Shown here: positions 5,370 through 13,764 of the stretch, in pieces | Layout: each line of letters begins with the position of its first letter | Position numbering within the stretch: the first letter of the stretch is position 1 | From: Amphibalanus amphitrite | Taxonomy: Eukaryota > Arthropoda > Thecostraca > Balanomorpha > Balanidae | Direction: 5' to 3' | Length of the DNA: 64,000 bases | Assembly (NCBI RefSeq): GCF_019059575.1 | Contig: NW_024882762.1 | Coordinates: forward strand, 62,001-126,000 | Made by a program: the position numbers and the translations under genes | The notes under the pieces: model-generated | Told to the model about the DNA's origin: nothing | The model's database searches: none | Seen by the model: only the letters and a program-made list of their open reading frames with translations

Positions 5370-6236
5370 AACAGCGAGACTTGGCACAGCTGCTGACTGA
5401 TACATTAGAGCAGTGAGCCAGACCATGGAAATGATTGCCCCTGGCATAAAAATGAGATAAATAAGCGTCGCTTCTGACTTCTGAGATTCATCTGCTGCTG
5501 ATCTAAGGGGAGCTGATACTTGATACTTGAGAGCAGCCATGAAGGTGGCAACAGGCTTGCCGGTGTCAACCTGAACCCACTCACAACTTGATGGTCCTGC
5601 CCTGGTGTCCCTACTGCATACAGGGCATGGCACTCACTCAGCTTTAGATTAAGCTTCACCATCAATATACCTCTCATCCACCAGTCACCACTGGTTGGGC
5701 ATTATCAGCCAAAGAGTGATTCACCTTCCACCTAGCTATATGTTAACCGCAATAGATCCAAAGAGCGCCCACGCCCCAATAGAAGCCAGAGGAAAGGCAG
5801 TGGAGGAGCAGTTGGCAATTGGCATCAATCCAGACAGACCTAGGCTGCATTCATTATTCAATTTCTCGGCAGTCATGTTTGGGGTCCGTTCAACCGCATG
5901 GACCAGAAACTGCTGGAAAGGGTAGGTACCTACAGCGAGGGGCAACACGTATCAGAACATCAGACACTTACACTATAAAGAACGCCTGCGGAAGCTTTGT
6001 CTACCATCACTTTACTATAGGCGCAATCGAGGTGACATAGGTACTTACTTACTTACTGAACACCTTCAACGCGAGTCTGGATGCCCACTGGGCCCACCTC
6101 TCGTACCAAACACCAGACAGCTGAGCTGTCAAACCATGGAGCTCGATGAGAGCGGGGCCTACTGCTACAGGCCTTACCATAAACACGACGACTGTAAGGA
6201 AAGGGAAGTGGAAGGTAAGGTAGCGCATAATGATAA
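5370..6236. other. No recognisable gene
   Basis: A minus-strand frame is open over 5139-5633, with cysteines and one hydrophobic stretch. It runs into the terminal C-tract of the neighbouring TTAA element and resembles no family I know. I see no splice sites or partner exons that would support it. Confidence 0.4.
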
Positions 6237-8733: not shown

Positions 8734-8968
8734 AGATGCAGATGCAGATGAGTTCCGGGGAATAGCCCTTGCATCGGCTCCCCGGCCATAGGTGCCTTAT
8801 CTGGTTGAAGGGATACTGGGAAAAGGATAAGGATAAAGGCTGCATGTCTCTGCCTTTGTTCATGGCCCTTAGAATAGAATAGAATAGAGGTTACGGATTG
8901 AGGACGGTCAACAAGGACCTGTAGGAATCCGGTCATTTACTTCTCCCTTACATCAACCATGTAGCTCT

Positions 8969-11900
8969 TTAGCTCATTCTGGCACCGCATGTTTGGTCAG
9001 TCCGCAGGGTATACTTCCTGTTCGCCCACAGCTTGTCGAGACGATTCTTGAATGTGTTCAAGCTCGGTGCCGCGACGACATCTGCAGGGAGGCTGTTCCA
9101 GCTGTCAACAATGCGGTGACAGAAAGAGGTCTGGCGAAGATGGGAGTTCACTCGTCTCTTCTTCAGCTTTAGATGGTGACCACGCGTTCGATCTGAGGTG
9201 TCGAGCTGCAGGAGGTCGGCTACTCTCACCCTCAGGCATCCTGTCAGGATCTGGTATGCCATTATCATGTCTCCTCTCATCCTTCTATAGTACATGGAGG
9301 GGAGGTTCAGGGCTCGAAGTCGATCCTGGTACTGAAGGTGACGCAAGGGACGAACCAGCTTAGTAGCTCTTCTCTGGACCCTCTCAATGGCATCCTGGTC
9401 CGATCTGAATGTAGGTCCCCACACCACGTTCGCGTACTCAAGGTGAGGGCGCACCAGAGTCCGATAGAGGAGAGGCAAAGATCGACTGTCTAGGGCTTTG
9501 AACGACCTCTTCACCAGACCAAGAACTCTGTTCGCACGACCCACTGCAGCTGCCACCTGTTCATGAAACTTGAGGTCTTCATCAATGACAAGTCCAAGAT
9601 CCTTTTCCGTGTGCACTTGAGCTAAGGTGGATCCATTCATCTGGTAGGTAAAGTATTCGTTAGAGGATCCCAGGTGCATCAGCTTACACTTTTCTTGGTT
9701 AAAGGGAAGCTGCCATCTGTCTGCCCAGTGCCCCAAGGCATCAATGTCTTGCTGGAGGAGAGTCTTGTCCTGGAGGCTGGTCACTTCCTGGTAGAGCTTG
9801 GTGTCATCTGCAAAAAGCATAGAACGGCTTCTGACGGCTTCTGGGAGGTCGTTAATGAAGACTAGAAACAACAGTGGTCCCAGTACAGAGCCCTGAGGGA
9901 TGCCGCTGCCGACCCGCGTCCAGTTCGAGCAAACGCCCTCTACCATGACTCTCTGCCTCCGGTTGGTTAGGAAGGCTGATACCCAGCGGAGCAGGTCCCC
10001 TCCAATGCCATACGCCTCCAGCTTCCTTAGAAGTCTCTGGTGGGGCACGCGATCAAACGCCTTCTGAAAGTCCAGATAAACCACGTCCACGGCACCTTTC
10101 CTGTCCAGGATGGTAAGCCACTCTTCAATCACCAACAGTAACTGCAGGGCACATGATCTTCCAGGCAGGAACCCAAACTGGTCATTGGTAAGGAGGTCAT
10201 TCTCGAGGAGATGGTCCAGTAGTCTATCTCGGACAAGAGATTCCAGCAGCTTACAGACAATTGAGGTGAGGCTCACTGGCCTATAGTTGCCAGGCAGACT
10301 TCTGTTTCCCTTCTTAAAAATCGGGACCACATTTCCCTCCCTCCACTTAGCTGGCAGGACTCCTGTGTCAATAGATCGCTGGAAAATCGTCTTGAAAGCA
10401 GTACAGAGAGGGATGGCCAACTCTTTCAGCATTCTCGGGTGTAGCCCATCAGGTCCTGGGGACTTGCTACAGTTCAGGGCCTCCAGTCTCCTTCGAATTT
10501 CCTCTTCTTGTACCCTGATGCTGGTCAGTGGTTCTCCATTGAACTTTGGATCAACTTCTGGGATGTCGCTGGTGTCCTCATCCGTAAACACTTTGCTGAA
10601 GAAGTTATTCAGTACCTCGGCCTTCTCTTCACTTGTGATAGCACTGGTCCCATCACCTCTTAACAGGGTCTCAACTCTTGCTTTCACTTTTGTTTTTGAG
10701 CTAACATATTTCCAGAAGACCTTTGGGTTTTGAGTCACATGCTTCGCCAGCTGGCTTTCATAGTTCCGTCTCAGTCTTCTGGTTAGGTTTCTTAGCACAT
10801 TCTTTGCTCTCTTATAATCTTGCTTATCTTGCTCAGATTTGGACCTCCTGTGCAGTTGATACAACCTGTCCTTATTTCTTTTTGCACGCAGGAGAGCACT
10901 GTTCGTGTAAGGTTGGCGCTTCTTCTTAGGTACACTTCTTAAAGGAATGTGCCTTTTTTCAGCCTCATGCATCAATGCCAGAAGTTCCTCCCAGCCTGAA
11001 TCAGCATCACAGAGCTGTAGTCTGCTCATAATATCTGAGTTTCGGATAGCCTGGACCATTGCTGGAAAATCTGCATTCTTGAAGTCTTTTGCTTGAGAGT
11101 TGCCCTTTACCAGCTCAGTCTTACACCTGAGAGTAAATACAAGACAATCATGGTGACTATTTCCCAGAGGCGAGTGGTGTTTGAGATCTGCTACCATACC
11201 TTCCTCTGATGTGAAGATAAGATCTAGAGTGCTAGGTGACTTGTTGGGCATAAAATGGGTTGGTTCCTCAACATGTTGTATGAGAAAGCAGTCTTGCATA
11301 GTATGCAGGAACTTGTGGGTATAATGGCTATCAGGTGCTTCAGATTTTCCTAGCTTCCAGTTGATTTCACGATAGTTGAAGTCGCCAGTAATTACGATAC
11401 TGCTTGGGTTACTTTGGCTTACTGTTTTCATTAGCTCACAGAGGGCGTCTGTTGATGTTCGTCCATCACTGCTTGGGCTACGGTAGATGGCTCCCAGAAT
11501 GAGGATTTCACCCTTTACAGGCTCAATTTGCATCCAAATGGATTCTTCAAATTGCCCAGGGAAGCTAACCTCAGATGCCCTTATATCTTCCTTGACCAAC
11601 ACCACAATGCCCTGCTTACCAGATGCACCTAGTCCTGGCTGGCTTGAATCAAAGTTTAAATAGGGCACATAATGATCCCCAACTGTGAAGCATCCAAGTG
11701 CAAGTGGTCTGATTTGGGCTTTAGGGATAGTCTCTGTTAAGACTATCACATCTGGCCACGCACAGTTTTCAGCCAGCAATGCTAATTCATCCAGCTTGTT
11801 TGGAAGACCATCTGCATTTGTGTACAGTATTTTCAATTGATTTACATTTTTTGATTGTGTTACTTCTTTCTTTGGCTGATCATTGTGTGCAGTGTCCCAT

Positions 11901-12076
11901 GACAAGTTAGATACATGCCCCTTTCTTTTGGAAAATTCACATGCATCACAGACACAGACATGCTCATGCTGAATCTTCAAGCATGCATCATAAGCAGCTT
12001 TAGCACCCTCTGGACCTGGGCATGCAAAATACCTGCAGGCTAGCCTGTAGACTTCCTTTACATGCTGACCCTTTAG
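8969..12076 (-). CDS. LINE ORF2: APE endonuclease and reverse transcriptase
   Basis: The open frame directly after the ORF1 stop is 1,036 codons including its stop. A Cys-rich N-terminus (YFACPGPEG, VCVCDACEF) comes first. An APE-type endonuclease follows, with TNADGLPNK, VIVLTET, ITGDFNYREINW, STLDLIF and NSHHDCLVF. The reverse transcriptase has FRVPHQR-type sequence, SGIPQGSVLGPLLFLVFIND and the catalytic FADDTKLY. The C-terminus (RRVNSHLRQTSFCHR, VDSWNSLPADVV) is typical of the CR1/L2 group, and RNase H is absent. The first in-frame AUG comes only at WMQIEP, after the endonuclease Asn and Glu motifs. The upstream 11978-11980 codon is UUG. A complete product therefore needs stop-codon readthrough from ORF1 or a non-AUG start. 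Confidence 0.9.
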   Translation of the reverse strand, partial: LKGQHVKEVYRLACRYFACPGPEGAKAAYDACLKIQHEHVCVCDACEFSKRKGHVSNLSWDTAHNDQPKKEVTQSKNVNQLKILYTNADGLPNKLDELALLAENCAWPDVIVLTETIPKAQIRPLALGCFTVGDHYVPYLNFDSSQPGLGASGKQGIVVLVKEDIRASEVSFPGQFEESIWMQIEPVKGEILILGAIYRSPSSDGRTSTDALCELMKTVSQSNPSSIVITGDFNYREINWKLGKSEAPDSHYTHKFLHTMQDCFLIQHVEEPTHFMPNKSPSTLDLIFTSEEGMVADLKHHSPLGNSHHDCLVFTLRCKTELVKGNSQAKDFKNADFPAMVQAIRNSDIMSRLQLCDADSGWEELLALMHEAEKRHIPLRSVPKKKRQPYTNSALLRAKRNKDRLYQLHRRSKSEQDKQDYKRAKNVLRNLTRRLRRNYESQLAKHVTQNPKVFWKYVSSKTKVKARVETLLRGDGTSAITSEEKAEVLNNFFSKVFTDEDTSDIPEVDPKFNGEPLTSIRVQEEEIRRRLEALNCSKSPGPDGLHPRMLKELAIPLCTAFKTIFQRSIDTGVLPAKWREGNVVPIFKKGNRSLPGNYRPVSLTSIVCKLLESLVRDRLLDHLLENDLLTNDQFGFLPGRSCALQLLLVIEEWLTILDRKGAVDVVYLDFQKAFDRVPHQRLLRKLEAYGIGGDLLRWVSAFLTNRRQRVMVEGVCSNWTRVGSGIPQGSVLGPLLFLVFINDLPEAVRSRSMLFADDTKLYQEVTSLQDKTLLQQDIDALGHWADRWQLPFNQEKCKLMHLGSSNEYFTYQMNGSTLAQVHTEKDLGLVIDEDLKFHEQVAAAVGRANRVLGLVKRSFKALDSRSLPLLYRTLVRPHLEYANVVWGPTFRSDQDAIERVQRRATKLVRPLRHLQYQDRLRALNLPSMYYRRMRGDMIMAYQILTGCLRVRVADLLQLDTSDRTRGHHLKLKKRRVNSHLRQTSFCHRIVDSWNSLPADVVAAPSLNTFKNRLDKLWANRKYTLRTDQTCGARMS

Positions 12077-12079
12077 TCA
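12074..12079 (-). promoter_or_regulatory. Candidate UGA-CUA stop-codon readthrough site
   Basis: On the complement, ORF1 ends in UGA (12079-12077), followed immediately by CUA (12076-12074). The frame then stays open through all of ORF2. UGA CUA is the best-known leaky stop context in animals and in alphaviruses (established knowledge). A short palindrome, CAGGCTAGCCTG (12036-12047), follows about 27 bases downstream and could form a small hairpin. That readthrough actually occurs is inference. Confidence 0.6.
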
Positions 12080-13297
12080 GACTCTGCTACCTTGGTTTTG
12101 GTGGACGTTTGTTGTTTGCTGTCCCGCATCACTTATCACCACCACTTTTCCCCTTTGGATGCGAACAACCTTACCCTCTTCTCTTAGTCTCTTTGCCTCG
12201 AGGCGTAACTTTCTGTCCTTTTCCCTTTCTTCTGGAGTGCGATCTGGTGACAAGTACACAGTTCCATATGCATGATGACCCCTGAGTTGAGGTGCCTGCT
12301 TGAGTATATCCCATTTCTTTTCTTCATCTTCCAGCGTCACGATCAACGGACGTGGCCTCTCAGGCTGGATCTTACCTGCCCTGAAGGCCTTGACGATGTT
12401 CACTTTGATGTGCAGCTCCTCTTCGATGATATTCTTTGCTTTCCTGACATCCTCCTGTGCTCGTTCCTTGGAGTTTTGGTTAGAACTCTCAGGAAGATTG
12501 TGTATCACAATGTTGTTTCTTCTCTTCTCTTTGTCAAAGAAGCTGCCAACTGTTTTTGCCAAACTTGCCTCCGGGTTATCCTCAGCAGGTCTCGGTGTAC
12601 CAGACAACTCTTCTAGTTTCTTTTCCAGTGTCTTCACAGCTTCTGCATACGTCCTCCTTTGCTCTAGCTCTGTTGCTTTTGTGGCTTCTGCTTTTTCTTC
12701 CTGCACTGTGACTTTCACTTCAATCCGCTGCACAGTTTCTTCAATTAATTTGGCCTGCTCGGAGCTTGCTGTGTGGCATGCCTGTATCAGATTTTCATGC
12801 TCTTCCAGTTGTCGCTTGAAATCGGTGTACGCTGCCTCTTGGACTTTGCATAAGTCTCTGCTGCTTGAAGCAACCCCTGCCACAGACTCACCCTGACCCA
12901 ACAGCACACTCCTGAAATCATCCAGTGCCCTAGTTACACAATCCGTCATTTTGGACTGGTTAAGCAGACTAGGCAGTATTTGTTGGCAAAAAGAGCAGAC
13001 CCAGAAGAACCCGAACCTACGGATCACCTCAAACTCTTCTACGGACTTTAACTGACAGCTTGTATGGTACCATGTCTCACATACATCACAACAGATGCAG
13101 GTGTCCTCCTTGATATCCTTTCCACACTTACTGTTCTGGCCACCCCTGCACAAAAAGGGTCCCTCAGAGTTTGCATTCTCACTACCCTTTGCTGCCTGGT
13201 CCTCGAATGTCACCTTCTTAGACATACGTGGCGCATCTCCTGGGGGCCCTATTTTGGATTTCACTGGCTGCTTGGACCTGCCCCTCGGTTCAGACAT
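12077..13297 (-). CDS. LINE ORF1: PHD-type zinc finger and coiled coil
   Basis: The protein is 406 residues from the first ATG (13297). The frame is open a little further upstream but only without an ATG. Near residues 45-105 there is a Cys/His-rich finger of PHD type (CGKDIKEDTCICCDVCETW, YHTSCQL, FFWVCSFCQ). A long Glu/Lys-rich coiled coil follows, and then a basic C-terminal part including RRNNIVIHNLPES, the kind of sequence found in ORF1 proteins of CR1/L2-group LINEs. Its role would be RNA binding in the retrotransposon particle. It ends in UGA with CUA next, in the same frame as ORF2. Confidence 0.85.
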   Translation of the reverse strand: MSEPRGRSKQPVKSKIGPPGDAPRMSKKVTFEDQAAKGSENANSEGPFLCRGGQNSKCGKDIKEDTCICCDVCETWYHTSCQLKSVEEFEVIRRFGFFWVCSFCQQILPSLLNQSKMTDCVTRALDDFRSVLLGQGESVAGVASSSRDLCKVQEAAYTDFKRQLEEHENLIQACHTASSEQAKLIEETVQRIEVKVTVQEEKAEATKATELEQRRTYAEAVKTLEKKLEELSGTPRPAEDNPEASLAKTVGSFFDKEKRRNNIVIHNLPESSNQNSKERAQEDVRKAKNIIEEELHIKVNIVKAFRAGKIQPERPRPLIVTLEDEEKKWDILKQAPQLRGHHAYGTVYLSPDRTPEEREKDRKLRLEAKRLREEGKVVRIQRGKVVVISDAGQQTTNVHQNQGSRV

Positions 13298-13764
13298 GCT
13301 TTTTGCCACATGCAACAAGCCCAATCAATTTGCCATGCAATATACCTCACTATCTTGCAAAAATGTTTCGATCTTTCAACCACACTTGGGAGAATCAACC
13401 GGTAGGTCTGGTCAGGATGGCGCCAGGAGGGGGATATGAACCCTTCCTGTCGTTTTTGACGGGTTCTCCATAAACAATGCAGCTTCTCCTTTCTCTCCTC
13501 TGCATCCTCTTCCCGTTCATCATTGAATAGAGAGTATCTCATGATCACAGTATCACTTGAGTATCTTCTATGTGTGGTCATTGTAGGAGTTTGATATTAT
13601 TTCTAACATCCATGAGTCTGTTAAATTTCAGTAGAAAGTGTGTTATTTTTCAAGATAAGGTCCGATCTACAATTGTGGCGCTGCTTATACATGACTAGTG
13701 CCTAGTGGGCTGCTACTGTGTTCTGTATTGTGGCTGTTAGATTCTATAATTTATATGTTCACAG

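Follow-up and report, generated by a model that had tools for sequence, protein, structure and literature searches.

A conserved UGA-C stop between ORF1 and ORF2 points to translational readthrough in CR1-like LINEs of Amphibalanus amphitrite

How does a retrotransposon produce its enzyme when the frame that encodes it offers no AUG ahead of the catalytic residues? The question is raised by a CR1-like long interspersed nuclear element (LINE) in a 64,000-nucleotide stretch of the Amphibalanus amphitrite genome (assembly GCF_019059575.1, contig NW_024882762.1, positions 62,001 to 126,000 of the forward strand; hereafter the window). Its two open reading frames (ORFs) run together on the minus strand (8969-13297) through 1,443 codons of a single frame, broken only by one internal stop. 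On the sequence evidence assembled here, we consider it very probable that this recently mobile element makes its endonuclease-reverse transcriptase by programmed, sequence-driven readthrough of that UGA stop, as an ORF1-ORF2 fusion.

Minus-strand translation bears out the layout described in the original prediction: one frame, a lone UGA followed by CUA (12079-12074), no other disruption across the span, a UUG at 11980 (codon 33 of ORF2) and no AUG until past the endonuclease Asn and Glu, the first being codon 182 (11533). ORF2 comprises 1,035 codons from CUA to UAA, and its matches to Exo_endo_phos, Exo_endo_phos_2 and RVT_1 all exceed the cut-off, marking an apurinic/apyrimidinic-type endonuclease and a reverse transcriptase (RT). 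The Asn is codon 87 (in YTNADG) and the Glu codon 115 (in LTE), both upstream of the AUG at codon 182; we take the two motifs to be catalytic. An AlphaFold model of ORF2, based on an alignment of 12 proteins, scores codons 1-77 below 50 in the predicted local distance difference test, starts the endonuclease with a strand at codons 80-87 and places codon 182 within the strand 179-185. As that AUG lies inside the endonuclease, a protein begun there would be without Asn87 and Glu115. A sequence search of the PDB with the N-terminal 425 codons of ORF2 gave no match. In ORF1, a PHD finger scores just below the Pfam cut-off of 24 bits (22.6 bits, E=1.1e-4), and the corresponding match in a related family from elsewhere, family F, reaches 25.4 bits; the region after the PHD finger is presumably of the coiled-coil/RRM-like type.

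The junction is shared by the other copies of the family. With ORF1 and the junction as query, the 807.6-Mb genome yielded 8 matches, 6 of which span the junction (the window included), and all six carry GUC UGA CUA A in frame; conservation of UGA CUA across copies, which the original prediction had proposed to check, was thus found. The family, A, falls into two subfamilies, A1 with 2 junction copies and A2 with 4, separated by a synonymous divergence (dS) of about 0.4. The ratio of nonsynonymous to synonymous divergence (dN/dS) between them is 0.18 in ORF1 and 0.11-0.14 in the endonuclease and RT, indels flanking the stop are multiples of three in the 5 copies aligned, and both ORFs are open in three copies (the window copy L001, L003 and L004). 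Truncated copies that are 99.8% and 99.9% identical across 1,700 and 1,395 bases indicate recent mobility of the lineage, of which both junction-bearing A1 members carry the UGA. A protein search with the read-through sequence returned 5 proteins of 922-984 amino acids covering 41-58% of the queried part; none has the length of a fusion, and their size fits ORF2 alone. The second A1 copy is split in ORF1, its 5' part lying ~7 kb from the remainder (G000:C333:172236-181185).

A more distant family, B, is represented by ten genome loci matching at 66-68%. Seven contain the junction, and all seven read GUC UGA CUA A. ORF2 continues in the ORF1 frame in 6/7, although one of the six, L025, has an extra stop at codon 61; in the seventh, L018, it is cut short after 84 codons. 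Amino-acid identity between families A and B is 53-54% in ORF1 and 56% in ORF2, falling among the first 80 codons after the stop to 21% (A1) or 27% (A2). Synonymous differences are saturated, their proportion being 0.79 in ORF1 and 0.755 in ORF2 for A1 against B, and 0.75 and 0.74 for A2 against B; that the same ten bases have been kept despite this divergence points to selection. Family B (L017) ends in CCTAA repeats ~130 bases past ORF2, which resemble the arthropod telomere repeat TTAGG.

Further families in the genome repeat the arrangement with variations in the codon after the stop. Family C has UGA CAA UCC AGG in 10/10 junction-bearing loci (L030 and L056 counted as one locus), with an ORF1 of up to 547 codons and an ORF2 of up to 957; both frames are open in 5 of these loci (ORF1 474-541 codons, ORF2 957), and the first AUG, codon 32, is downstream of the Asn motif. 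The in-frame pattern recurs with UGA CAG in family G (L064), UGA CGG in family H (L065), UGA CAG in family I (L066; a second locus, L067, has the same stop and a frame-shifted ORF1), UGA CUA G in the 5 loci of family J and UGA CUA A in the single locus of family K. A protein search with the ORF1 of family G gave at least 100 genome matches (80 of 802 candidates scored). Among the 100 listed, no ORF1 match sits in an open frame of more than 707 codons, and a fusion needs about 1,400; no fused frame was therefore seen.

From these matches we read a blind sample of 40 pieces extending ~0.7 kb past the ORF1 match, whose stops were unknown beforehand; loci already read and many near-duplicates had been left out, and the endonuclease was detected by a motif sought in all three frames. 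In 34 pieces ORF1 and the endonuclease motif share a frame that is interrupted by a single stop. This stop is UGA C in each of the 34, continuing as CUA (22), CUG (3), CUC (3), CAU (2), CAA (2), CUU (1) and CGC (1). Fetched loci L015, L016, L032, L043 and L045-L055 were left out of the analysis.

The arrangement is not confined to this genome. Among bacterial and archaeal assemblies, a scan yielded 22 loci that we took to be eukaryotic LINEs in contaminated contigs; 11 were examined, the other 11 matching too far into ORF2. Four of the 11, from three families (D, E and F), share it, with UGA CAA in L034 and L038, UGA CUA C in L040 and UGA CUA G in L042. The ORF2 of those scanned for domains (L034, L040 and L042) has endonuclease and RT, and in L040 (family E) the stop lies two codons ahead of the start of the endonuclease match. 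Scans of viral contigs found no LINE relative.

To tally these results we took one in-frame junction per family or subfamily, leaving out loci whose two ORFs do not share a frame and grouping the 34 sample pieces by the residues directly following the stop, which gave 21 groups, reduced to 20 by merging two near-identical ones. Of the resulting 32 junctions, 29 are from this genome, with A1 and A2 separate, and 3 from elsewhere. The stop is UGA and the base at +4 is C in 32/32, and the next codon is CUA in 18/32, the full range being CUA, CUG, CUC, CUU, CAA, CAG, CAU, CGG and CGC. Information content is 2.0 bits at +4, 0.99 at +5, 0.58 at +6 and 0.07 at +7. Upstream, a bias at -5 (0.73 bits) and -2 (0.68 bits; A in 22/32) may make the stop leakier; it often takes the form of CAR or GAN as the codon ahead of the stop. 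As a small control, the stops of ORF2 itself are UAA A (A), UGA A (B), UGA U (C), UGA U (L027), UAA G (D) and UGA C (E), so that UGA C ends ORF2 in 1/6 control families; the family E stop is itself UGA CUA (L040:4357-4362). The pattern belongs to a group of LINEs in this genome and not to one copy, and is wider than the original prediction proposed.

These junctions use known leaky contexts (here and below, published work is cited from the extracts available to us). UGA CUA is the regression-derived context of highest readthrough in human genes, confirmed by reporters, with 144 human candidates, and the same work cites UGA CAR YYA from yeast and certain viruses (PMC4359377). Readthrough with the UGA CUA motif reaches up to 31.3% (OPRL1), and that of LDHB, calculated here from the fold difference, is well under 1% (PMC12233894). 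Most ribosomes would terminate at the UGA and release the ORF1 protein, and a small share, aided by the C at +4 and in most cases by the whole CUA codon, would insert an amino acid there and translate on across the flexible linker to the endonuclease and RT. This would yield an ORF1-ORF2 fusion, like retroviral gag-pol, and the leakiness of the stop would set how much is made of each protein. The sequences themselves display the anatomy of the element, its conservation and, in most families read, the want of a usable AUG; the occurrence and rate of readthrough and the role of the fusion as the working enzyme are inferred.

Several results weigh against readthrough as the shared device. The linker after the stop is only moderately to weakly constrained, with an A1-A2 dN/dS of 0.54-0.58 across codons 1-82 and 0.68-0.78 across codons 1-60. 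The 100 bases that follow the stop fold no better than shuffled sequences do (mean z 0.09, 2/32 below -2). Six of the 40 sampled pieces do not fit: L086 has an additional in-frame stop; no endonuclease motif is present in L088, whose first stop is UAG, or in L114, a piece without any stop; and in L098, L107 and L109, whose first stops are UGA C, UGA G and UGA C respectively, the motif is in a different frame. Elsewhere, 7 of the 11 outside loci are without the arrangement (L033, L035, L036, L037, L039, L041 and L044), and a tree, which contains the sequences of this analysis only and no named CR1 references, puts the users of UGA-C in three separate places. Finally, an AUG does occur early in some families. 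By hand count over the 32 families and subfamilies, it stands at the first endonuclease strand in 6 (A2, at codon 86, and D, L076, L089, L090 and L092) and would leave the endonuclease whole in 3 (B, at codon 15, and L097 and L113, both 8 codons past the stop). A metagenomic protein 98% identical to that of the window LINE, P0001, begins with M before the endonuclease, where the window has Lys, and may carry an AUG there, and P0002 and P0003 begin with M near the AUG of family B. A search for a stimulatory hairpin downstream of the stop found none; the helix predicted in A1 pairs bases that, judged by eye, differ in A2.

The early AUG codons bear most directly on termination-reinitiation, in which ORF1 would end at the UGA and translation would resume close by, on an AUG or another codon, to make ORF2, a mechanism proposed for SART1 and mammalian L1. 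Reinitiation is reported for LINEs (PMC5972666, PMC2881922), and the AUG codons of family B, L097 and L113 make it possible there. In 23/32 families and subfamilies there is no AUG ahead of the first endonuclease motif, and the window LINE has neither a SART1-type stop-start overlap nor an AUG before the enzyme. Reinitiation also sits poorly with family E, whose endonuclease follows the stop almost at once, and it predicts neither the fixed frame and fixed UGA nor the invariant +4 C; we regard it as improbable. Another thought in the original prediction, an inactivating point mutation in one copy with working elements carrying a sense codon, would account for a lone stop within an otherwise open frame. 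It is excluded by the stop common to 6/6 junction copies of the family, by family B (7/7), by UGA-C in 32/32 in-frame junctions and by the lack of any fusion-length protein in the search, and its probability is practically nil. Other copies having a sense codon, a different stop or a conserved AUG before the endonuclease had been named as signs against readthrough; neither of the first two was seen among the in-frame junctions, and the third applies to B, L097 and L113.

An invariant UGA could also suggest that the codon is recoded otherwise, as selenocysteine, through an altered code, or by RNA editing to a sense codon. UGA does not look reassigned, as it ends a putative WD-repeat gene (a long ORF of the window, read as such) and the ORF2 of families B and C; an Rfam scan of the element gave no family at E up to 1; editing would leave sense-codon copies, of which there are none among the in-frame junctions; and none of the three predicts C at +4. 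We hold this to be very unlikely. A supply of ORF2 protein in trans by another LINE, which would make the UGA irrelevant, is suggested by the numerous related families in the genome and is slightly more improbable still, given that the related families read share the UGA-C junction and that the ORF2 of the window family is under constraint, as its dN/dS values show. Programmed readthrough of the UGA is the explanation we favour.

Odon et al. reportedly describe non-long-terminal-repeat (non-LTR) elements that bear 2A sequences. Like the present LINEs, these are reported to be CR1-like elements in which recoding takes place close to where ORF1 meets ORF2; they differ in that DxExNPGP is absent from the 23 ORF2 rows scanned here, and 2A-mediated expression was rejected on that ground. 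One contaminant LINE, L035, from a Bathymodiolus symbiont assembly, has a 2A-like DTETNPGP, which lies before the endonuclease in a single long ORF (frame +2, about 317-400). In L036 (1540-1660) and L037 (1340-1460), ORF2 is in the -1 frame of ORF1 and overlaps its end, with no AUG before the endonuclease. In L036 the ORF1 stop is closely preceded, in frame with ORF1, by G GGA AAC, which is a canonical -1 slippery site, and L037 has G GAA AAC UAA. No such frameshift arrangement is present in the window LINE, where ORF1 and ORF2 are in the same frame.

The scattered position of UGA-C users in the tree would mean that the device is either old with occasional loss or gained repeatedly. With rather less confidence than for the window LINE, though on balance in favour, we propose that UGA-C readthrough is the default, perhaps old, route to the endonuclease-RT in a large radiation of animal CR1-like LINEs, the enzyme being made only as a low-stoichiometry ORF1-ORF2 fusion and the signal being structure-free primary sequence; related lineages would use -1 frameshifting (L036) or 2A (L035), so that the devices are interchangeable means of recoding and not of reinitiation. 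Metagenomic relatives of ORF1 (P0121-P0126) end at about the same place, 4/6 of them in Val by eye. In families A and B the residue ahead of the UGA is Val, a hint that these relatives share GUC UGA.

Known systems each match part of this picture. CR1/L2 LINEs with a PHD-type ORF1 share the two ORFs, the PHD-like ORF1, the endonuclease and RT in ORF2 and frequent 5' truncation (PMC4120745, PMC4316615; the extracts say nothing on the start of ORF2), whereas here ORF2 follows an in-frame UGA C and has no AUG of its own before the endonuclease. The mammalian readthrough genes LDHB, MDH1, AQP4 and OPRL1 have the same UGA CUA context, but they gain a C-terminal extension where the LINE would gain a 1,035-codon enzyme, and they favour G at +7, a position that is free in the LINE junctions (T 10, A 9, G 9 and C 4 of 32) (PMC4359377, PMC12233894). 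The gag-pol of murine leukaemia virus likewise joins a structural protein, a leaky stop and an RT polyprotein; it belongs to a retrovirus and uses UAG with a pseudoknot, whereas the LINE, which is not a member of that class, has UGA C without evident structure (PMC5009743). SART1, with its UAAUG, and mammalian L1 are also two-ORF LINE RNAs in which ORF2 depends on ORF1 translation (PMC5972666, PMC2881922), but they differ from the elements described here, in which there is no stop-start overlap and most families have no AUG before the endonuclease motif. The literature, in the extracts available, ascribes reinitiation to SART1 and to L1, calls the initiation mode of mammalian LINEs unknown and contains nothing on LINE readthrough; an incomplete check of work on LINE translation, by title or the start of the abstract, found no report of readthrough in a LINE, which does not establish its absence from print.

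ATTCT-type short 3' repeats are a hallmark of CR1-clade LINEs, and such tails are present in the window copy and in the 6 other family copies shown. Of the copies tested for target-site duplications, L003 alone gave a match, of 8 bases. The plus strand of the window contains fragments of a second LINE RT (5877-6039, tblastn).

Table 1. Positions of the CR1-like LINE and its parts in the window.
Feature	Position	Strand	Basis or remark
CR1-like LINE, full length (ends approximate)	8870..13441	-	Ends from other copies, which stop at 13441-13428 and 8875-8865
ORF1, 406 codons, AUG at 13297	12080..13297	-	Translation; weak PHD finger match
UGA stop of ORF1, proposed readthrough site	12077..12079	-	UGA in 6/6 family junction copies and 32/32 in-frame junctions
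CUA codon after the stop (leaky context)	12074..12076	-	CUA in 18/32, C at +4 in 32/32
Linker from stop to endonuclease, ORF2 codons 1-79, no AUG	11840..12076	-	Low model confidence
Endonuclease domain, ORF2 codons 80-317	11126..11839	-	Exo_endo_phos, Exo_endo_phos_2; model strands 80-87 to 311-317
Codon 182, earliest AUG in frame past the stop	11531..11533	-	Inside model strand 179-185
Reverse transcriptase core, ORF2 codons 588-807	9656..10315	-	RVT_1 E=2.3e-34
UAA stop of ORF2	8969..8971	-	Translation
3' tail of ATTCT units	8871..8888	-	Sequence, copy comparison

The production of the second LINE protein has been studied in few elements, and reviews, as far as the extracts go, point to reinitiation. 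About thirty families and subfamilies with the same short signal make the question testable by a standard dual reporter. The elements would also serve as a collection of naturally occurring leaky stop contexts, most of them shaped by selection in a single host, and would offer a way to find full ORF2 starts missed by annotation. If readthrough is indeed how the enzyme is made, the LINE enzyme would be a Gag-Pol-like fusion, which bears on the rarity of the ORF2 protein and on the way it locates the RNA that encodes it.

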